From NCBI GenBank assembly GCA_015059045.1, contig SVBD01000007.1:1-64000 (forward strand): 64,000 bases of DNA, written 5' to 3'. The stretch comes from Erysipelotrichaceae bacterium (GTDB lineage: Bacteria; Bacillota_I; Bacilli_A; RFN20; CAG-449). The notes below the pieces were generated by a model. The model was not told the origin of the DNA. It made no database searches and saw only the letters and a program-made list of their open reading frames with translations. The position numbers and the translations under genes were made by a program. Shown one piece after another: positions 4,834 to 15,929 of this stretch; position 1 is the first letter of the stretch, and the number at the start of each line of letters is the position of its first letter.

Positions 4834-6861
4834 TTACCCATTTTTTATTTGTTTTTTTATTTTTTCTTGTTCAAGAAGCTTTTTTCTAACGTTTTTATAA
4901 GCTAATCTAGCGCCACTTTTATCATACTCTTCTATAGTTGATAGATTTAACGCTTCTTCAATATTACCAACTTCTAAACTCATTGTTTCAATATATTTTC
5001 GCATCAACGTTTTAATACTTTCTTTATCGAACTTTTCAAAAGTAATTATTTTTGTAATTCTAGACATTAAAGATGAACCTAAAATCTTTTCTAATTCAAC
5101 ATTATTTTCTTCGTGTTTTTCACTTGTTAAATATCCTTTAAAAGTTTTATAATTATTCTCAAAAACGCTTGAAATTAATATAAAAACTGCATTTTTACAA
5201 TTTACCTTATTTCCGCGATTATCATAAAAATATCCTTTATCAAACACATCTAAAAAGAAGTCTTTAATTTCATTTAATCCTTTATCAAATTCTTCAATAA
5301 TTACAAACGAACTAGGGTTATCATTTAATCCTTTAACCAAAGGAGAAACCGCCTCTAAATAAGTGTTAGATGATCCATTAATTAGTTTGTTTAATCCATT
5401 TAAATCCTTATAGCAATTTAAGTTTATTATTATCGGATTTGTTTTTTGATAATAAGAAGCAATTATATTTGCACACAACGATTTTCCACAACCTGAAGGA
5501 CCATTAAATAAAAATACTTTTACAATATCATTTTTAGGGGATTGAAGCTTATCAATTATTTCAAACTCATCAACAATTTGTTCGATCGCTCTTTCTTGAC
5601 CAACAACTTCATTTAGCAACTTTTGTTCTAGTGATTCTATTTTCCTATTACCTATATTTATTTTATAGAAAACCTCGAATGTTTCTTTAATGTTTTCGCT
5701 AGTTAAATGACTCTTTGCAATAACGCACGAATTATCTAATACATCTATTGCTTTATCAGGAAATTTCAAGTTCAATAAATGCCTATCACATAGTTCTACT
5801 ATATCTTTTAACAAATAGTTATCAATTTTAATTCGATAATGCTTCTCATAAATTGGTTTAATTTTTTCAAGAATATCTAATGTTTCCTCTTTTGTAGATT
5901 CATTAATTCTTATTAGTTGGAATCTTCTTTTTAACGCTTTATCCTTTTCAAAAGTTGCATTAAATTCTTCTTGGGTTGTCGCTCCAATAATTTGAATTTC
6001 TCCTCTTGATAAATAAGGCTTTAAAATATTTGCAGCATCAATTGCCCCTTCTGCGCCACCTGCTTTAACAATAGTATGTATTTCATCAATAAATAATATT
6101 GCATTACCATCTTCATGAACTTTCTTAATAATCTTTTTTATTTTCTCCTCAAATTCACCTCTATACTTAGTTCCCGCTACTGTTGAAGCAATATCTAATT
6201 CATATATGGTTTTCCCTTTTAATAAAGGGATTTTATTATCAAGTACTAATCTTGCTAGTTCTTCAACTATCGCACTTTTACCTACACCCGGTTCACCAAG
6301 TAATATTGCATTAGGTTTATTTCTTCTACTTAACGCATTTATTAATTGTTTTAATTCAGATTCTCTACCAATAAGAGGATTTAATACATTAACTCCCATT
6401 AAATGTAAATCTTGAATGGTTGTTAATTCTGATTTTTTCTTTTTTGTATTGTTAATTGCTTTAGTTATTATACTTAGATTTACTTTATTTTTAATAAGTA
6501 ATTCTTGGGCGACGTTTTTATTAGATATAAGGGATAAAGCAAGAGTATCTACACTAACTAAACTCTCTTTAGCTTTGTCTGAAAGTTTAATTGAATCTGT
6601 TAATAATTCTTTTAATTCAAAAGTGTATTGAACATATAAATTAGTATTATCTTGTTCTTGATATAAGTTTTGAATTATCGGATAAAAAGAATAATAATCT
6701 ATTTTATATTTTAATAATTCTTTAGAAAGAATATTATCACCCAACTTCAAAAAGCTTAATAATAAATGTTCACTTCCTACAGTAGGATGATTAAATTCAA
6801 ACGCTAAAGCTTCCGCGATTGAAATTATTCTTTGAGCACCACTAGAAAATTTTTCAAGCAT
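4834..6861 (-). CDS. ClpC/ClpA-like Hsp100 ATPase lacking the middle domain
   Basis: AAA+ unfoldase with two ATPase modules. The N-domain (about 1-140) begins MLEKFSSGAQRIISIAEALA. Module D1 has Walker A GEPGVGKS at 189-196, pore loop GTKYRGEFE near 230 and Walker B LFIDEIH at 256-262. Module D2 has Walker A GPSGCGKS at 454-461. D2 is divergent: its Walker B reads VIIEEF instead of the usual LLDEI, and the GYVGY-type pore loop is missing. The coiled-coil middle domain normally between D1 and D2 of ClpC is absent, as D1 runs from DKAIDVLDNSC straight into the D2 linker. This explains the length of 675 against about 810. No ClpP-binding VGF/IGF-type tripeptide is obvious. No ctsR, mcsA or mcsB lies beside it. 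Function as a ClpP partner is therefore uncertain. Confidence 0.8.
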   Translation of the reverse strand: MLEKFSSGAQRIISIAEALAFEFNHPTVGSEHLLLSFLKLGDNILSKELLKYKIDYYSFYPIIQNLYQEQDNTNLYVQYTFELKELLTDSIKLSDKAKESLVSVDTLALSLISNKNVAQELLIKNKVNLSIITKAINNTKKKKSELTTIQDLHLMGVNVLNPLIGRESELKQLINALSRRNKPNAILLGEPGVGKSAIVEELARLVLDNKIPLLKGKTIYELDIASTVAGTKYRGEFEEKIKKIIKKVHEDGNAILFIDEIHTIVKAGGAEGAIDAANILKPYLSRGEIQIIGATTQEEFNATFEKDKALKRRFQLIRINESTKEETLDILEKIKPIYEKHYRIKIDNYLLKDIVELCDRHLLNLKFPDKAIDVLDNSCVIAKSHLTSENIKETFEVFYKINIGNRKIESLEQKLLNEVVGQERAIEQIVDEFEIIDKLQSPKNDIVKVFLFNGPSGCGKSLCANIIASYYQKTNPIIINLNCYKDLNGLNKLINGSSNTYLEAVSPLVKGLNDNPSSFVIIEEFDKGLNEIKDFFLDVFDKGYFYDNRGNKVNCKNAVFILISSVFENNYKTFKGYLTSEKHEENNVELEKILGSSLMSRITKIITFEKFDKESIKTLMRKYIETMSLEVGNIEEALNLSTIEEYDKSGARLAYKNVRKKLLEQEKIKKQIKNG

Positions 6862-8947: not shown

Positions 8948-10444
8948 CTATCTATCTCTCATGTGAGGGAATAGTAATACTTCTCTAATTGATACTTGTT
9001 CAGTTAAGAACATAACAAGTCTATCAATACCCATGCCAACGCCTCCACAAGGTGGCATACCATATTCTAAAGCTTCGACGAAATCAACATCCATTTCGTT
9101 AGCTTCATCGTTTCCTGCATCTCTTTCCTTTAATTGATCTAAGAAACGATTCTTTTGATCAATTGGGTCATTTAATTCTGTATAAGCGTTAGCGAATTCG
9201 TGACCTCCAATAAATAATTCAAATCTTTGAACAAATCTAGGATCTTCTAAATCAACTTTTGTTAATGGAGAAATTTCTACTGGATGTCCGCAAAGGAAAG
9301 TTGGTTGAATTAATTTGTCTTCGCAGAATTTTTCAAAGAACGCATTAATAATATGTCCTACTGTAAAGTGTTTTTCAACTTGAACACCGTGTTGTTCTGC
9401 TAAAGCTTTTGCTTCATCTAATGTATAGTGATTACCTTTGAAATCAACACCTGTTTCTTGTTTAATCATTTCACACATTGTAACAACTTTGAATGGTTTA
9501 GAAATATCAATCTTTTCTCCTTCTGGATTAAAGATGTTTAAGAATTCTTCTTTTCCAGCAACTTTAGCGGCGGCATGTCTTACCATACCTTCAGTAATCC
9601 TCATCATTGAAGATAAATCACCAAATGCTTCATATAATTCAATAGTTGTAAATTCTGGATTGTGAGTTAAATCCATACCTTCATTTCTAAATAATCTACC
9701 AATTTCGTATACTTTTTCAAGTCCACCAACGATTAATCTCTTTAATGGTAATTCTGTTGCGATACGTAAATAGAAATCTTTATCAAGAGCATTATGATGT
9801 GTGATAAATGGTCTAGCTGTAGCTCCACCTTGTACTGGTTGAAGAACTGGTGTTTCAACTTCGATAAACCCTAAATTATCACAATATTCTTGAATTGCAC
9901 GAATTACTTTTGGTCTAGCAATTGCCGTCCTTTTAGCGTCTTCGTTCATGATTAAGTCGACATATCTTCTTCTATATCTTTCTTCCTTGTCTGTTAAACC
10001 ATGGAATTTTTCAGGAAGTGGTCTTAAAGCTTTAGTCAAGTGAGTATATTCACTACATTTGATTGTTGGTTCTCCTGTTTGAGTTAACATTACTTTACCT
10101 TTTACACCAACGATATCACCAATATCTGCCATTTTGAATAATGCGTATGTTTCTTCACCTACATCATTAATTGAAATGTATACTTGTTGTTTTCCTTTAA
10201 TATCTTGCAAAGCAAAGAAACTAGCTTTACCCATTTTACGGATAAACATAATTCTTCCCGCTACAGAAACGTGTAAATCCAAAGCTTCAACTTCTTCGTT
10301 AGTTAATCCTTTAACCCTGTTTCTAATATCTAATGACCAGTCAGTACGATCATAAGCTTGTCCAAATGGATCAATACCTAATTCTTTTAACTTGTCAACT
10401 TTTTGTCTTCTAACAATTTCTTGGTCTGATAATCTTTCTTGCAT
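8948..10444 (-). CDS. lysS: Lysyl-tRNA synthetase, class II
   Basis: 498 residues from the ATG at 10444, which has AGAGG 8 bases upstream; an in-frame upstream start would add an unlikely 10 residues. The OB-fold anticodon-binding domain covers about 1-150 (VAGRIMFIRKMGKASFFALQ, DIKGKQQVYI). The class II catalytic core follows, with motif 2 (FRNEGMDLTHNPEFTTIELY) and motif 3 (GMGIDRLVMFLT) near the C-terminus. It charges tRNA-Lys. Normal length for bacterial LysRS. A TATAAT sequence lies about 55 bases upstream at 10499-10504 (minus strand). Confidence 0.97.
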   Translation of the reverse strand: MQERLSDQEIVRRQKVDKLKELGIDPFGQAYDRTDWSLDIRNRVKGLTNEEVEALDLHVSVAGRIMFIRKMGKASFFALQDIKGKQQVYISINDVGEETYALFKMADIGDIVGVKGKVMLTQTGEPTIKCSEYTHLTKALRPLPEKFHGLTDKEERYRRRYVDLIMNEDAKRTAIARPKVIRAIQEYCDNLGFIEVETPVLQPVQGGATARPFITHHNALDKDFYLRIATELPLKRLIVGGLEKVYEIGRLFRNEGMDLTHNPEFTTIELYEAFGDLSSMMRITEGMVRHAAAKVAGKEEFLNIFNPEGEKIDISKPFKVVTMCEMIKQETGVDFKGNHYTLDEAKALAEQHGVQVEKHFTVGHIINAFFEKFCEDKLIQPTFLCGHPVEISPLTKVDLEDPRFVQRFELFIGGHEFANAYTELNDPIDQKNRFLDQLKERDAGNDEANEMDVDFVEALEYGMPPCGGVGMGIDRLVMFLTEQVSIREVLLFPHMRDR

Positions 10445-10552
10445 AATAAAAACCTCTACTTTCTTTAAAGTCATTTATTATTTTACAAAAAAATAATAAT
10501 TATAGCAATATTTAGTTAATTAAAAGAAGTTTGTATGTAGCAACATCAAATT

Positions 10553-10699
10553 CTAATTTCCTATAACAAAATTATTATCAAGATACAATTTTTCTAACAT
10601 CATCTTTTGTGTTTGAATACTACCAGATTCCTCTAAAGATCCATCATCTAAAGAAAGTCTACAATAAATAGCAGTCTTATACAAAATAGATTCTATCAT
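10553..10699 (-). pseudogene. Serine recombinase, N-terminal stub
   Basis: A 48-codon frame starts at the ATG at 10699, with GGAGGCG 7 bases upstream. It encodes the first strand of the resolvase/invertase catalytic domain: ...TAIYCRLSLDDGSLEESGSI and then QTQKMMLEKL. This is the typical start of large serine recombinases, with the nucleophile region YCRLS and the SI-Q segment. It ends at TAG directly after NNFVIGN, where the family normally continues with the YVDDGYSG motif. No continuation was found in the other frames. The rest of the gene (over 400 codons in the family) is missing, so this is a remnant of a mobile element. Confidence 0.75.
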
Positions 10700-10730
10700 A
10701 TCATCGCCTCCTATCCATTACAATTTTAAT

Positions 10731-10816
10731 CTGGGTATCCCAGTTAAAACAGGTGACGTGCAAGGCTATGTGTTTCAGAGTGAAGCACGTCAGCATTTAG
10801 TAACTAGGATACCTAG
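10731..10816. repeat. Concentric double inverted repeat upstream of the recombinase stub
   Basis: Outer arms CTGGGTATCCCAG (10731-10743) and CTAGGATACCTAG (10804-10816) are 11/13 inverted copies, and each is itself nearly palindromic. Inner arms TGACGTGC (10754-10761) and GCACGTCA (10785-10792) are perfect inverted copies. Both pairs share a centre at about 10773. It lies 32 bases upstream of the recombinase start codon. This could be a recombination or attachment site, or a folded RNA. Confidence 0.6.
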
Positions 10817-10824
10817 CTTACATA

Positions 10825-10863
10825 TAAAAAACCACCTTATTGGTGTTGCCCAACAAAGTGGTT
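10825..10863 (-). terminator. Terminator after the 182-residue gene
   Basis: Minus-strand stem AACCACTTTGTTGG / CCAATAAGGTGGTT with a short loop, followed by TTTTTTA. It lies about 40 bases after the stop of the gene at 10901-11449. Confidence 0.75.
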
Positions 10864-10900
10864 AGTGTCTAAATACTTTATTTAATTTTTATATTTAACT

Positions 10901-11449
10901 CTATTTCTTCATTTTAGAATTCATAACAATTTCTTTATCATTTGAATATCTCAAATATGACTTAATGTTTATATTATCATCACTTGTATTAAATAAATAT
11001 TCCCTAAATGAATTAATTCCTCTAGTGATATCTCCAGATTCAATAAACTTCGCCAAATTATTATTTTTATAAACAATTTTTCCAATTACATTAACTTTTT
11101 TTCTTTTCATGCAATACCAAACAATTTCAATTTTACTCTCGAAATAATAGAATAATATAATATTTAAAATAGACCCATTTGAATATCTCTCAGTTAAAAT
11201 TAATTTATTATTCTTATCAAAATAATATACAAAATCTTTTTTTCTTTCGTCCTCTGTTAGTTTGCCATCATATTCGAAATACTTTTCTAATTGTTGTTCT
11301 GGAAAATGCATGCCATAAATACCGTCGCCAACGCTCATTTTTTTATAAGAATAATTTGATAAAATTTTATTGTAATCGTTTATTGGATTTATGTGATTAT
11401 CCATTATTTGTTGTAGTTCATTCAATATATCAGTATTTTCACTTATCAT
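10901..11449 (-). CDS. Hypothetical protein of the RHS-immunity island
   Basis: Not recognised. 182 residues, soluble, acidic at the N-terminus and Lys-rich at the C-terminus, with no signal peptide or membrane segment. A G-rich Shine-Dalgarno (AGGGGGGG) lies 9 bases before the ATG, and a terminator follows at 10825-10863. The sequence is AT-rich like the island around it. Its place beside decayed RHS tips and membrane immunity-like genes suggests a soluble immunity protein of a polymorphic toxin, but no family match can be claimed. Confidence 0.5.
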   Translation of the reverse strand: MISENTDILNELQQIMDNHINPINDYNKILSNYSYKKMSVGDGIYGMHFPEQQLEKYFEYDGKLTEDERKKDFVYYFDKNNKLILTERYSNGSILNIILFYYFESKIEIVWYCMKRKKVNVIGKIVYKNNNLAKFIESGDITRGINSFREYLFNTSDDNINIKSYLRYSNDKEIVMNSKMKK

Positions 11450-11602
11450 AAATTACAACCCCCCCTAAAATACTTTGATAGAATTCCAAAACATCTTCTA
11501 CACCTTCAGATTCATTAATTAAATAACCCGTACCAATTAAAGTAACTCCAAGGCAAATATAGATATTATCAATGATGATGGGGTAATAGTTTTATCTTTC
11601 AT
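11439..11602 (-). pseudogene. Frameshifted small hydrophobic protein gene
   Basis: An ATG at 11602, with GGAGAGAAAGAG before it, opens a frame that stops after about 21 codons. A second frame continues from about 11570 to the stop at 11439-11441 and encodes NIYICLGVTLIGTGYLINES then a short acidic tail. The switch of frame at a repeated ATC tract (about 11570-11580) suggests a broken small membrane protein. The end overlaps the start of the 182-residue gene. It could also be two unrelated short frames. Confidence 0.35.
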
Positions 11603-11943
11603 CTCTTTCTCTCCTATTTTGTGTTTTAATCTCTTTACTGAGAGTATATCTTTTTTGTTAAATAATCAATTTCTTATTGCTTATGAGCGAACACTTTTGT
11701 TTAAAAATATAATTATATTTACGACATTACTTCAATTCCAATCAATGATATCACTAATTTATCTAAAAGTAATTTTCTAAATTCTTTATTCATATAATCA
11801 ACACGTAATTTACATAATTAATTCATTAACCATATTATACCATTTTTCTACTAAATAATCTAATAATATATATTAAATAAAAGGCGAATCTACCGGAGGT
11901 AAACTCACCTAGTTTTGCTTGTGAAAGTAATTTGCTATTTGTT
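11603..11943. other. Gene-free stretch with terminator
   Basis: A 24-codon minus-strand frame (MNKEFRKLLLDKLVISLIGI then EVMS, about 11719-11793) with a TATAAT upstream may be a gene remnant, but is too short to call. The terminator at 11873-11910 belongs to the gene at 11944-12387. Nothing else is visible. Confidence 0.4.
11873..11910 (-). terminator. Long-stem terminator of the immunity-like gene cluster
   Basis: In minus-strand RNA a 13-pair stem (AGGTGAGTTTACC with GGTAGATTCGCCT, including G-U pairs) closes a TCC loop and is followed by TTTTATTT. It lies 34 bases after the stop of the 147-residue membrane protein. Confidence 0.75.
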
Positions 11944-12387
11944 TTAACTAATTTTTTCAATTACATCACATATTTTGGTGTTAGGATAAAATCTAATAAT
12001 ATAGGTTTCTCCAATTTCGACATCTTTTACATTTAAAACTATATACTCATCTTTTTCAATTAAATAAAATTTTGGTTTGCTATTTTCTTGTCTACCGCTT
12101 CCGTCATAATCAAACCGAGAAACAGTAAACTCAACAACCTTTGCTTTTTCTTCTATATATGTATTGTTAACTACATAATTATAATCTTTACAACATAACC
12201 CAAATTTACTAGCACACAATGTACTTAAAGCAAATGAAACACATGAGCAAACAATTAATAGAATGATGCCATATTTCTTATCTAAAAATAATTTTTTTGC
12301 AAATATAAACCCTAAAATAAATAATAAAGCAAATATAATCATTCCAATTAAAGTTAAGTAAAATAATGTCCAATAATTTTTAACCAT
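11944..12387 (-). CDS. Small membrane protein, candidate immunity protein
   Basis: 147 residues. Two hydrophobic helices lie in the first half (LTLIGMIIFALLFILGFIFA and IILLIVCSCVSFALSTLCAS). A beta-rich domain follows, with KVVEFTVSRFDYDGSGRQEN and DVEIGETYIIRFYP, resembling DUF3592-type membrane proteins, though the match is weak. Shine-Dalgarno AAGGAGAAG precedes the ATG. The 22 bases around this ribosome-binding site recur exactly at 14293-14314, where no gene follows. It is the last gene in a row of membrane proteins interleaved with RHS fragments, which suggests an immunity role; this is inference. Confidence 0.55.
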   Translation of the reverse strand: MVKNYWTLFYLTLIGMIIFALLFILGFIFAKKLFLDKKYGIILLIVCSCVSFALSTLCASKFGLCCKDYNYVVNNTYIEEKAKVVEFTVSRFDYDGSGRQENSKPKFYLIEKDEYIVLNVKDVEIGETYIIRFYPNTKICDVIEKIS

Positions 12388-12429
12388 TTTTATCTTCTCC
12401 TTATGCTCTTTCTAAATTACAAGTTAATT

Positions 12430-12897
12430 TTAATATATTCCTTTTTCTTTTAATAAACTTTCAATTTTATGCTTAACTTCAATATTAGAACAATACTTCA
12501 TAAATTCATCAAAAACTTTACTAGTAATTTCAAACATTATTTTTTTATTGTTGTCGTAAATTTTAATTCCATAAGAAGCTCTAACACAATAAGAAAAAGA
12601 TAATTTAACATCAGATATTTTATTATATTCAATATTAATTATTTTACCAAATTGCTTTTGAACTATTTTATTCTCGTCAAGATAAATAGGCGAATTTAAT
12701 TTTAATAGCGAATAAAGCAATACTAAAATATGTAATATAAAGAAAATAATTATAAAGAAAAATACACTGTTTTTATCTTCGACTTCGACACTAGGAAGAA
12801 TACCTACTATTGTCACAAAAAACAACATAAACGATAAAATAGAAAGTGAAATGGTTCTACCAATACATGGTCTATATTTTATATATTTCCTTTTCAA
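12430..12897 (-). CDS. Membrane protein with bacterial PH-like domain, candidate immunity protein
   Basis: The start is placed at the TTG at 12897, because GGAGGGGG lies 7 bases before it; an upstream ATG at 12921 would put that site inside the gene. 155 residues: a hydrophobic pair at about 20-75 (TISLSILSFMLFFVTIVGIL and FFFIIIFFILHILVLLYSLL), then a beta-rich domain (YLDENKIVQKQFGKIINIEY) typical of bacterial PH-like domains. The N-terminal codons overlap the last codons of the RHS fragment at 12872-13369. Toxin-tip genes directly overlapping their immunity genes are a known feature of RHS/polymorphic toxin loci. It is similar in layout to 13465-13901. Confidence 0.6.
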   Translation of the reverse strand: MKRKYIKYRPCIGRTISLSILSFMLFFVTIVGILPSVEVEDKNSVFFFIIIFFILHILVLLYSLLKLNSPIYLDENKIVQKQFGKIINIEYNKISDVKLSFSYCVRASYGIKIYDNNKKIMFEITSKVFDEFMKYCSNIEVKHKIESLLKEKGIY

Positions 12898-13369
12898 TAT
12901 TCTTCCCCCTCCAATATACATTTACAATACTATTTGCTGTACTTGTTAGAATTGTGTTATATGCATTGACAAAATGTGTTGCTCTATCATAGATATTGAA
13001 TTTACTTACAAACTCACCTATCATAGTAGGGAATAAACTAGCACCCGTACCATTTAAAGTAACTTCAAACTCTTGTGCTCCTGGAACAAAGCATAGTGCA
13101 ATTCCCAGTTCTATTTCTAACCCAGATATCAACCCTTGCCACCATTCTGGTGAATGACCCGTTGAATCAACCTACATAATCGGATTATTGAAACAATAGC
13201 AATATAAGTTCAATCCATTGATACTTTCAGGATCTAAATATTCAATTGAATCTGGACTTATGAACCTGCAAAGTTCAGGCGAATAATATCTAGAGTTGCA
13301 ATAGAATAACTGAGTTTCAACATCATAATCTTGATTATCCTTGAATATTACCCAACAAATATATAATAT
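12872..13369 (-). pseudogene. RHS-repeat protein, C-terminal core and tip fragment, interrupted
   Basis: The frame opens just after a TGA at 13370-13372 and has no start codon or ribosome-binding site. It carries the RHS-associated core: YDVETQLFYCNSRYYSPELC, then RFISPD, INGLNLYCYCFNNPI and VDSTGHSPEWWQGL. This matches the family pattern YYLxSRYYdPxlGRF...NLYaYcxNNPvxxvDptG. An in-frame TAG at 13172-13174 interrupts it between NNPIM and VDSTGH. The C-terminal ~85 residues form the variable tip (GLEIELGIALCFVPGAQEFE onward). The final codons overlap the start of the membrane protein at 12430-12897. It is a displaced, inactivated tip; the parent RHS gene is not in the window. Confidence 0.85.
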
Positions 13370-13419
13370 TCACTTCTTCATTCTTTCAAACTTGAAATGG
13401 GTATCCCATTTGCGTAATC

Positions 13420-13450
13420 AGAGCTGTACCCAAATTTTGGGCACAACTCT
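13420..13450 (-). repeat. 15-pair hairpin between RHS tip and immunity-like remnant
   Basis: In minus-strand RNA AGAGTTGTGCCCAAA pairs with TTTGGGTACAGCTCT (two G-U pairs) around a one-base loop. The stem contains two G-U pairs in the minus-strand transcript that would be C-A mismatches on the other strand, which hints it acts as minus-strand RNA. There is no T-run after it, so it is not a normal terminator. Confidence 0.5.
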
Positions 13451-13464
13451 TATCCTGTTGCAAA

Positions 13465-13901
13465 TTATTTAATTATTTGTTCTATTTTATAATCTTTTAA
13501 TACTTTTTCGAATTCATCTTTATATCTGTATTAATCAAAACTTTTTTGTCATTTATGAATAAATTGAATTGATAGAACACAGATTTTCTATATCTACTAC
13601 ATGTATATTTTTTAATATCACATATATTAAGTTCAATTTTTCTAAATAAAGTCTTTAAATAAACTTTTTCATTATCAAACTCTAACCTATATTTAATAGA
13701 ATATAGCCATCCATATAAGCCGATTGTTCCAAACATAACCCCTGCAATTGCGAATAAAATAATATCTTTATCACTATATTTATCATTATTCATCAAATAA
13801 ATGGATAGCGGCATTAATATTGCAAAAATATATCCAAACAACATAATGTTCCTAAATGGCTTGCCCTCTTTTCTCATTCCATCAATTATTTTGTTATTCA
13901 T
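13465..13901 (-). pseudogene. Membrane/PH-like candidate immunity protein, frameshifted near its end
   Basis: Starts at the ATG at 13901 (AAGGAGGAAAATT upstream). Two membrane segments (NIMLFGYIFAILMPLSIYLM and IILFAIAGVMFGTIGLYGWL) precede a PH-like beta-rich domain (YRLEFDNEKVYLKTLFRKIE). The reading frame stops at 13497 after 134 residues, but another frame carries YKDEFEKVLKDYKIEQIIK to a stop at 13465-13467. That ending matches the position and character of the C-terminal helix of the paralogue at 12430-12897. A single indel near 13530 would explain this. It could still make a shortened product. Confidence 0.55.
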
Positions 13902-13923
13902 AATTTTCCTCCTTGAAATGTTG

Positions 13924-14217
13924 TTACATTACAGCTGTTTTCCAAGATGTACCTAATATCACAACACTTGATTTATAAATAGACCAAGTAATAGAGCTTA
14001 ACATCTTAGCACCAGAACTACTATAAGCAATTCCAATTGGATTATTATTTGCATATGCATATAGATTTAATCCATTGATATTTGATGGGTTCAAACTTGA
14101 TACATCCGCTGGTTGAATGAACCTTCCTAATTCAGAACTATAATACCTTGAGGATAACCAAAAATAACCAATTTCTACAGGGCTATTACGAGTTTCCTCA
14201 TAATAACCATATCTTAA
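13924..14217 (-). pseudogene. RHS-repeat protein, second C-terminal core fragment
   Basis: An open frame of 97 codons without a start codon or ribosome-binding site. It carries the RHS core: YGYYEETRNSPVEIGYFWLS, SRYYSSELGRFIQPAD, NINGLNLYAYANNNPIGIAY, then a variable tip SSSGAKMLSSITWSIYKSS onward, ending WKTAVM. The core motif SRYYxxELGRF and the NLYAYxNNNP motif are clear. The usual DPTG turn after NNNP is replaced by AYSSSG. Directly downstream lies the membrane protein remnant at 13465-13901. It is a displaced C-terminal cassette of an RHS toxin. Confidence 0.85.
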
Positions 14218-14388
14218 TTATAATGTGTTAGTAATGAAATTGGTATCCAATTTGCATATATAAAGCACTTGGAGAAATATTATAAAATAATATTCTCCTT
14301 ATGCTCTTTCTAAAACATCATATTTCTATCCAATATAAATAACATTTATAGGCACACTATCACCATTGAAAATGTAAATAATGCTTTT
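14218..14388. other. Intergenic remnant with shared ribosome-binding-site repeat and palindrome
   Basis: Contains AAATTGGTATCCAATTT (14237-14253), one of the GGTATCC-core palindromes of the island, and a 22-base exact copy (14293-14314) of the ribosome-binding-site region at 12395-12416. No frame follows this copy, so it is probably the scar of a deleted immunity gene. Confidence 0.5.
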
Positions 14389-14841
14389 TCAACCAAATAT
14401 TTGTTCTATTTTTGAAAGTTTAATATGAAAGTCCTCTATTGTATGCTTCTGTTCTTGTGTTAATATTATTAACTTTTGGTTATCAATATAGTAATCTATA
14501 ACTTTGTTTTTTTCTAAAGTAACAAGTTCTTTTTTTGTAATGCTTTTTACTTTAATTTTCTTTACAAAAACAATCTTATCATTTTCTCTTTTAATGTAAT
14601 AGCTTCTTCGTCTAATAATACAAATAATTATCAAAAATATAGGAATCCAACCAACAGCTATTAATACATTTATCCACTCATTTAATCCACAAATAAATAT
14701 AGCAAAAATCAATGTTCCAATATAAAATAATATTTCCCCATTAGTTGACTTGTCATAATAAATTTTCACTTTATTTTCTCCTCCAACGGATTCTTTAATT
14801 ACATAAATCGTTTTGTTTTTATCATCAATAATTGGTGACAT
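14389..14841 (-). CDS. Small membrane protein, candidate immunity protein
   Basis: 150 residues. Two adjacent hydrophobic segments at about 36-76 (ILFYIGTLIFAIFICGL and INVLIAVGWIPIFLIIICII) end in RRR. A basic beta-rich domain follows (YIKRENDKIVFVKKIKVKSI). The layout of two helices followed by a PH-like domain is shared with the genes at 12430-12897 and 13465-13901, which suggests a family, though primary similarity is low. It is the first gene of the island next to the rpiB operon. Function unknown; an immunity role is inferred from context. Confidence 0.5.
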   Translation of the reverse strand: MSPIIDDKNKTIYVIKESVGGENKVKIYYDKSTNGEILFYIGTLIFAIFICGLNEWINVLIAVGWIPIFLIIICIIRRRSYYIKRENDKIVFVKKIKVKSITKKELVTLEKNKVIDYYIDNQKLIILTQEQKHTIEDFHIKLSKIEQIFG

Positions 14842-14892
14842 TTTAACTCTTTGAATATTTAATTTGTTTTTCCTCTCTATAAATTTGTCCTC

Positions 14893-15321
14893 CTATCTTT
14901 CTATCTTATTAACTCTAGTTTGATGCCTTCCACCTTCGAATTCTGTTTCTAAAAAATTCTTTACCCATCTTTTAATGTCTTCTAAAGGGAAAAACTTTGC
15001 CCCAAATGCAATCATGTTGCAATCATTATGAAGTCGAGTTAATTTACTTACCTCATCATTATAGCAAAGGCCACATCTAACACCTTTTACTTTATTCGCA
15101 GTAATACAAACTCCTTCTCCAGAAGTACATACGACAATTCCTCTGTCAACTTTATTTTCAGAAACTAACTTTGCGCATTCATACGCAAAATCAGGATAAT
15201 CACACGAGTCTAAACTATCTGTTCCACAGTCTATTACTTCATGTCCTAATTCTTTCAAATAAGATACTAATTCTTCCTTATATAAATATCCACCATGATC
15301 TGAACCAATTGATATACGCAT
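14893..15321 (-). CDS. rpiB: Ribose-5-phosphate isomerase B
   Basis: 142 residues from the ATG at 15321. The upstream ATG at 15336 is part of the Shine-Dalgarno GGGAGGAATAAAT and cannot be the start. The RpiB/LacA-LacB fold is shown by MRISIGSDHGGYLYKEEL, the catalytic-Cys loop VVCTSGEGVCITANKVKGVR and TRLHNDCNMIAFGAKF, with His and Arg for phosphate binding (GGRHQTRV at the end). It interconverts ribulose-5-phosphate and ribose-5-phosphate in the pentose phosphate pathway. The start lies 2 bases after the sua5 stop codon. Confidence 0.92.
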   Translation of the reverse strand: MRISIGSDHGGYLYKEELVSYLKELGHEVIDCGTDSLDSCDYPDFAYECAKLVSENKVDRGIVVCTSGEGVCITANKVKGVRCGLCYNDEVSKLTRLHNDCNMIAFGAKFFPLEDIKRWVKNFLETEFEGGRHQTRVNKIER

Positions 15322-15323
15322 AT

Positions 15324-15929
15324 TTATTCCTCCCATACTTTTTTTATTTCTTCAAATTTAATACTACCTTCTCTTACTAGAATTAATTCTTCATCACAAA
15401 TAACTATTGTAGAAGGAGTATTTGATGATGTGTTTCCTTTAACGATATAAGGAACTTTTCCTTTAAAAACCCCATATGTTTCATTAAAATCTTCACAAAC
15501 TTTTTGACCAGATATATTCGCACTGGTAACTAACATTGGTTTTCCTACTTTACTAATTAAAGAGCAAACTTCTTCTTTACCACTGACTCTAATGCCAACA
15601 TATTTAGAATCAAGTTTTACCCAAGGATAAATATCTTCTTTTGGTCTTAATAAAAGAGTTATTTCTCCTGGCATATATTTTAAAATCAACTTTTCTATTT
15701 TTTCATTTACGTAAGCATACTCTTTAACTAGTGAAGGATTATCTAACATTAAGGTAAAAGGTTTATCTGGTTTTCTTTCTTTGGTTTTAACTAATTCATT
15801 AAATGCATCTAAAGAGTCATAGACAACACCCATTCCATAAACGGTTTCAGTAGGAAAACAAACCACTTGATTTGTAGTGATTGCCTCTATTAATTCTTTG
15901 CTATTGAATCCTACTACTTTTGTTTCCAT
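15324..15929 (-). CDS. tsaC: Threonylcarbamoyl-AMP synthase (Sua5/YrdC/YwlC family)
   Basis: 201 residues covering the YrdC domain (ITTNQVVCFPTETVYGMGVV, KERKPDKPFTLM, MPGEITLLLRP, ANISGQKVC, STIVICDEELILVREGSI). The KxR...SxN ligand-binding residues appear in place. The enzyme makes threonylcarbamoyl-AMP for the t6A37 modification of tRNAs. The C-terminal Sua5 domain is absent, so it is the short TsaC-type. It sits between a small secreted protein gene and rpiB; in Bacillus subtilis ywlC lies in the same prfA-prmC neighbourhood. Confidence 0.92.
   Translation of the reverse strand: METKVVGFNSKELIEAITTNQVVCFPTETVYGMGVVYDSLDAFNELVKTKERKPDKPFTLMLDNPSLVKEYAYVNEKIEKLILKYMPGEITLLLRPKEDIYPWVKLDSKYVGIRVSGKEEVCSLISKVGKPMLVTSANISGQKVCEDFNETYGVFKGKVPYIVKGNTSSNTPSTIVICDEELILVREGSIKFEEIKKVWEE

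Follow-up and report, generated by a model that had tools for sequence, protein, structure and literature searches.

A row of RHS remnants in an Erysipelotrichaceae genome as the probable decayed record of toxin-tip/immunity cassettes with a dedicated serine recombinase

A 64,000-nucleotide stretch of the genome of an Erysipelotrichaceae bacterium (contig SVBD01000007.1, positions 1 to 64,000; referred to here as the window) carries a row of remnants of RHS polymorphic toxin genes between rpiB (14893–15336) and lysS (8948–10474). The row, which comprises two start-less RHS core fragments and five small open reading frames (ORFs), lies with both flanking genes on the minus strand, as do all window features described below. 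An earlier note on this DNA, made from the letters alone, had proposed that the two fragments carry RHS core motifs and belong to displaced orphan tip/immunity modules. A profile check with the RHS repeat-associated core model TIGR03696 (cut-off 32.5 bits) bears out the first point. Fragment 1, a displaced core with a truncated tip (13927–14175, starting at the junction GA), scores 36.7 bits at 14032–14175, and fragment 2, a displaced core followed by a tip (12875–13318), scores 63.0 bits at 13154–13333, a match that contains one in-frame TAG. This TAG comes immediately after the core of fragment 2; in fragment 1 it is the tip that is shortened. Both fragments lack a start codon and have stop codons directly upstream, and neither possesses the long YD-repeat shell that, in a complete RHS toxin, reads in frame into the core and the tip and that is present in the related loci L034, L036, and L046. 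The window fragments are dead. Recoding of the in-frame TAG was considered and rejected; an RHS gene elsewhere in the genome (contig C4) likewise stops after NDPVM, but owing to an insertion there. What the window does contain is the arrangement of an orphan module, a start-less core fragment with its tip followed by an immunity gene. In relatives, full RHS genes are trailed by headless core–tip–immunity units on the same strand, in agreement with the earlier note on its second point.

The start of each window fragment coincides exactly with the right end of an element of the TndX-like large-serine-recombinase type. Upstream of each lies a two-hairpin leader, followed by a short arm that extends up to the GA of the Y-D-V-E-T codons of the RHS core. 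For fragment 1, leader and right arm are of type B: the leader (14232–14312; ATAAG ... GGATACC; fold z = -5.6) precedes an arm (14176–14230) that ends at the GA of the V-E-T codons and shares 25 of 27 bp with the DNA that follows the stop codon of the L047 recombinase and 52 of 54 with L021, to which window positions 14035–14313 are 82% identical. For fragment 2 they are of type A, with a leader at 13388–13460 (fold z = -6.2) and an arm at 13319–13365, from which the recombinase has been deleted. Here, 28 of 30 bp are the same as the sequence after the recombinase stop in L046, and positions 13314–13472 are 88% identical to L022.

A third trace retains the beginning of the enzyme itself. Positions 10556–10699 encode the first 48 codons of an L034-type large serine recombinase, then truncated, at 92% DNA identity to L034; across leader and recombinase start together (10568–10791, 224 bp), the window is likewise 92% identical to the intact element L034 of a congeneric genome. 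The accompanying L034-type leader (10720–10785; palindrome GGGATACCC) has an incomplete first stem. It adjoins a piece of an L048/L049-type element (10786–10932) that is 84–94% identical to L048, L049, and L114 upstream of their recombinases. At the other end of the row, 14768–14892 is a piece of an L047-type element from upstream of the recombinase, including the start of a small accessory ORF (91% DNA identity over 131 bp to L047 1393–1523, with the first ~27 codons the same). Several successive events are recorded in the window, by one recombinase remnant and no fewer than two right arms. The coordinates and reading of the earlier feature list stand, except that it overlooked the recombinase remnant as well as the leaders and right arms that recur ahead of both fragments.

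The leader motif consists of a stem, an ATAA bulge, a variable stem, and then a GG-ATA-CC hairpin with an ATA triloop (z -4 to -6). It is located between the immunity gene and the recombinase or right arm, occurs also at L020 11590–11668 and L004 5035–5112 (minus strand), and was found in five of eight congeneric genomes; a search of three relatives' loci against Rfam gave no match. The GGATACC palindromes were considered as the crossover site and rejected, as the junctions lie 60–90 bp further on, at RHS codons, and the palindrome is part of the leader.

The anatomy of the whole element can be read from intact relatives, in which the order is RHS core, tip 1, immunity gene 1, recombinase, right arm, and a displaced core fragment with tip 2 and immunity gene 2. 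In a genome of the same genus (G002; L020/L034), an RHS protein of 2175 residues with tip 1 is followed by an immunity gene, a leader, an intact 530-residue recombinase, 53 bp, and a headless YDVET core fragment with tip 2 and its immunity gene. The 530-residue enzyme carries Resolvase, Recombinase, Zn_ribbon_recom, and DUF4368 domains, and recombinase P0001 has all four TndX-like domains above cut-off. In L034, L036, and L046, the parent ORFs are in frame (1577, 1900, and 2175 residues across the three loci), the host frame continuing into the new tip. The recombinases of L034, L035, and L036 are 96–100% identical and sit in three different RHS host genes. L035 and L036 share a tip type (68%) and the tip of L034 is different, placing two tip types on one element. 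Cassettes also occur in series: L046 has two complete ones, each with its own recombinase, the first with three further ORFs as extra cargo and the second (tip cassette at L046 13126–17723) with a type IIG restriction enzyme and methyltransferase. L035 has one cassette with a recombinase (frame broken), then further core–tip units. Orphan tips resemble active tips of distant genomes, as between an orphan in L051 and a parent in L054 (47% over the tip).

Two side observations concern these relatives. A small ORF of ~50 residues with an E-x-F-x-G...L-x-x-I pattern is found just upstream of the recombinases in L040, L041, L046, L047, L048, L054, and L071; it is possibly an accessory or directionality factor. 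On contig C11 of G002 (L139 1–3682), an immunity gene with the same leaders and right arm lies beside housekeeping genes, with no RHS core match there; L139 is an immunity-only remnant.

The most direct evidence for the point of integration comes from L035, where an uninterrupted native core at 5010 provides a natural empty-site copy within the same genome. Compared with this copy, the left junction is 95–100% identical to the left of the GA (20–100 bp) and 55–60% immediately to its right, and the right junction is 44–48% identical to the left of the GA and 95–98% to its right. Thus, identity changes at one and the same GA in both junctions, and this GA lies within the conserved Y-D-x-E-T codons. 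The right ends of L034 and L035 show the corresponding pattern, with 97–100% identity to the left of the GA and 55–67% to its right. TndX always uses a central GA (PMC4430133), and the L035 junctions switch at a GA, yet this GA sits in the Glu codon of the target. It is important to note that GA conservation alone therefore proves nothing; the switch in identity does. Among all records searched, with matches at contig ends excluded, truncated RHS cores begin at TIGR03696 positions 22–27 (of 76) in 35 of 45 cases.

An element composed of only leader, recombinase, and right arm might instead have inserted into a pre-existing orphan core fragment. Recombinase-less leaders and right arms do recur with different immunity genes upstream (L021, L022, and the window), as such a tip-less element would predict. 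It would also predict the left half of the RHS core directly upstream, which is absent; in L035, this half is found upstream of tip 1, breaking at the same GA, and we regard the tip-less alternative as very improbable. The right ends that have unrelated immunity genes upstream (window/L022 and window/L021) may represent cassettes that are non-autonomous or may have arisen by homologous exchange.

Used as a query against 84,980 species genomes, the L034 recombinase yielded 79 loci. Most relatives with at least 41% identity reside in RHS loci, usually with a core fragment 23–260 bp after the recombinase stop where the sequence continues; beside relatives with at most 37% identity, the RHS core-end model found no matches. 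In a tree of 84 recombinases, 19 of the 26 members of one clade are RHS-linked (Shimodaira–Hasegawa-like approximate likelihood-ratio support, SH-aLRT, 100), and the only RHS-linked recombinase outside it belongs to the unrelated C4 insertion discussed below. The tree requires 4 changes of the RHS-link label, compared with 17 for shuffled labels. A sample of 395 Bacilli genomes gave a similar picture, with RHS sequence within 1.5 kb at six of nine loci with at least 45% identity and at none of six with at most 39%. Hosts of the relatives include Bacilli, Clostridia, and Mycoplasmatota. Strain zrk2 (CP076020.1), sequenced to completion, combines an open recombinase frame with a core fragment downstream of it. 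In plasmid and phage collections, the best rows showed 32–41% identity and no clade member was evident; TndX itself is 34.8% identical to the recombinase. Within the clade, L037, L038, L044, L052, and L060 have no RHS gene on the sequence examined and may target other genes.

According to the published view of orphan tips, tips are added to RHS genes by homologous or illegitimate recombination (PMC3150448, PMC5361080); the recombinase elements would then be later hitchhikers in loci shaped by ordinary C-terminal displacement. L019 and L035 hold the longer tandem core duplications that are typical of homologous events, as this explanation would have it. It leaves unexplained, however, why the breakpoints fall at one codon in most loci, why right arms are the same as far as the GA and diverge beyond it, why an empty site exists within the same genome, and why one recombinase clade is nearly confined to RHS loci, and we consider it unlikely. 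The earlier note had attributed the displacement to recombination of this generic kind. The displacement itself is upheld, but not the generic cause, since the starts of the fragments coincide with the right ends of an element that has a dedicated serine recombinase.

Based on these comparisons, a coherent model would have the window as the decayed remains of an array of mobile cassettes, each bringing an RHS tip and its immunity gene. Such cassettes would integrate at a specific site in the RHS core, where the incoming tip is fused in frame and the resident one is displaced; we hold this interpretation with high confidence. An intact cassette comprises the 3' end of the RHS core (from the E-T codons), a toxin tip, an immunity gene, often extra cargo, often the two-hairpin leader, and the TndX-like recombinase, with 24–170 bp between the recombinase stop and the displaced core. 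The element would excise as a circle and, once its joined ends had paired with the YDxET codons in an RHS core, would integrate there, catalysis by the recombinase being presumed from the observed junctions. At the left junction, the host RHS frame runs into the new tip, such that the carrier gains both tip and immunity gene; at the right junction, behind the recombinase, lies what remains of the old unit, a headless core end with its tip and immunity gene. The old immunity gene stays, as the arrangement in relatives documents, and would presumably continue to protect the host. Repeated integration would generate arrays, and loss of the recombinase would leave leader and right arm before an old tip, as in the window. 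The cassettes may still be active and probably spread horizontally.

Several observations weigh against this model. The GA, as part of a Glu codon, is present everywhere and is not an independent sign of crossover at that position. Only one clean in-genome empty site was found, in L035, a locus that shows tandem duplication too. Seven clade members, two of which are cut off by the end of the contig, lack RHS genes on the sequence examined. In L055 and L071, the break falls elsewhere in the core, and several recombinase genes (L035, L037, L039, and L049) contain stops or frame breaks. The recombinase-less right ends of types A and B are shared with different cargo upstream, which suggests that homologous recombination also reshuffles the loci.

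A separate question is who benefits. With the same anatomy, the cassettes could be chiefly selfish, the tip and immunity gene sparing the target gene and making loss of the element costly. Extra cargo, including the type IIG restriction system of L046, and the persistence of mostly decayed remnants in the window fit such a role; the new tip is nevertheless in frame with a full-length carrier, and a parasite would not have to maintain this. Selfishness is a serious possibility, although we lean slightly away from it. More generally, the site-specific cassettes described here probably constitute an undescribed class of mobile element, with autonomous and recombinase-less members and an RHS-dedicated serine recombinase, that supplies RHS carriers already present in genomes of Bacilli and Clostridia with new tips and immunity genes and leaves integron-like arrays of retired tips.

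The genome also contains the RHS gene on contig C4 mentioned above, a gene of 1419 codons (TIGR03696 68.5 bits), and the claim that a parent RHS gene is missing thus holds within the window and fails for the genome. An element of ~10 kb (L004 1322–11168) stands between its core and its tip; it is bounded by an inverted repeat (GGGTCTT...) and encodes a MobL relaxase, AbiEi/AbiEii, and a DUF4368 recombinase, with no second tip. Membership of this element in the RHS-linked clade was rejected: its recombinase falls outside the clade, and the gene is broken at a different codon. It is a separate insertion and is not used as evidence here. A contig scan of genomes with the C4 RHS protein as query found no relatives.

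The small genes of the row are real ORFs at the coordinates first assigned to them, and none of their proteins reaches the cut-off of a Pfam or NCBIfam model. The best characterized is the intact gene at 12430–12921. In an AlphaFold model of its product (ten-row alignment, pLDDT 75), two long hydrophobic helices are accompanied by a sheet of six strands and by helices at the C-terminus, and the model's top PDB matches are PH domains (probability 1.00, E about 4e-3, with weak TM-scores of 0.3–0.36); the modeled fold supports the previously proposed architecture of two membrane helices plus a PH-like domain. The gene lies directly 3' of its cognate tip, as does the immunity gene of L036. Because a 31% homologue follows immediately 3' of an intact RHS tip in L142, from another family of the same order, the immunity reading is supported, and so is the orphan-module interpretation. 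Two other ORFs need revision. The ORF at 13497–13901, relative to a 145-residue homologue in L036, is frameshifted and forms part of an immunity pseudogene of the same membrane/PH-like type (13468–13901; 90.6% DNA identity to the intact L036 9452–9910). The ORF at 14389–14841 is chimeric: its first ~27 codons match the small ORF preceding the recombinase in L047, fused to an immunity-like protein that aligns with the other membrane/PH-like ones. Homologues of the 12430 protein occur in 2 of 279 genomes of the order and those of the 13497 type in 3 of 279, so that these two, at least, are not widespread apart from RHS genes. By position, the membrane protein at 11944–12387 is a probable immunity gene and the soluble ORF at 10901–11449 a possible immunity or cargo gene. 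Throughout, toxicity and immunity are predicted functions of the modules in window and relatives alike. The segment 11838–11955, 3' of immunity genes, recurs in L019 (85%), C4 (L004 67–135, 88%), L047 (81%), and L061 and may mark an older boundary.

It has been an open question how a polymorphic toxin can exchange its tip while its earlier immunity genes are retained. A clade of recombinases aimed at one defined codon would provide the enzyme that has been missing and make tip exchange testable in vitro; if the recombinase-cassette reading is true, mobile elements could carry toxin specificity itself. With the right-arm and att sequences, displaced tips and immunity genes can be placed in order and counted in metagenomic data. 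No published description of serine-recombinase RHS tip cassettes was found in a literature search that left subscription papers and preprints largely outside.

Orphan tips of RHS and contact-dependent inhibition (CDI) systems and their displacement are well known (PMC3150448, PMC5361080, PMC3967940). As in the loci described here, orphan rhs/cdiA-CT modules follow a full-length gene and line up a core fragment without its head, a tip, and an immunity gene; they have been explained by homologous or illegitimate recombination (PMC5361080), whereas the present units are distinguished by a dedicated serine recombinase and a fixed att site. TndX/TnpX-like elements (Tn5397, Tn4451; the DUF4368 clade) share the domain order, possibly the central GA, and a target within a conserved coding motif, Tn5397 preferring Fic-domain genes (PMC4430133). 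The DUF4368 recombinases are reported as multi-targeting (PMC10083194); the present clade, in contrast, is found mostly at RHS cores, and the left end of its elements gives the interrupted gene a new toxin tip. XerC/D genes have been noted near some polyimmunity loci (Zhang 2012, PMC3482391), likewise placing a recombinase beside immunity arrays, but of another family, and the relevant passage of that paper gives no att site or target. The orphan-tip pattern has been likened to integrons, with the statement that there is no evidence for an integrase (PMC5361080). Integron arrays are alike in that the newest cassette comes first and older ones are pushed downstream. They differ in their tyrosine integrase and attC sites: the present units have neither, their right arm being another kind of site, and each autonomous cassette has its own serine recombinase and is fused in frame inside a gene. 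In shufflons, such as those of PilV tips, a tyrosine recombinase inverts resident segments and thereby changes the C-terminus of a surface protein. The likeness lies in the use of a site-specific recombinase to alter such a C-terminus, and the difference in that the present system integrates incoming cassettes.

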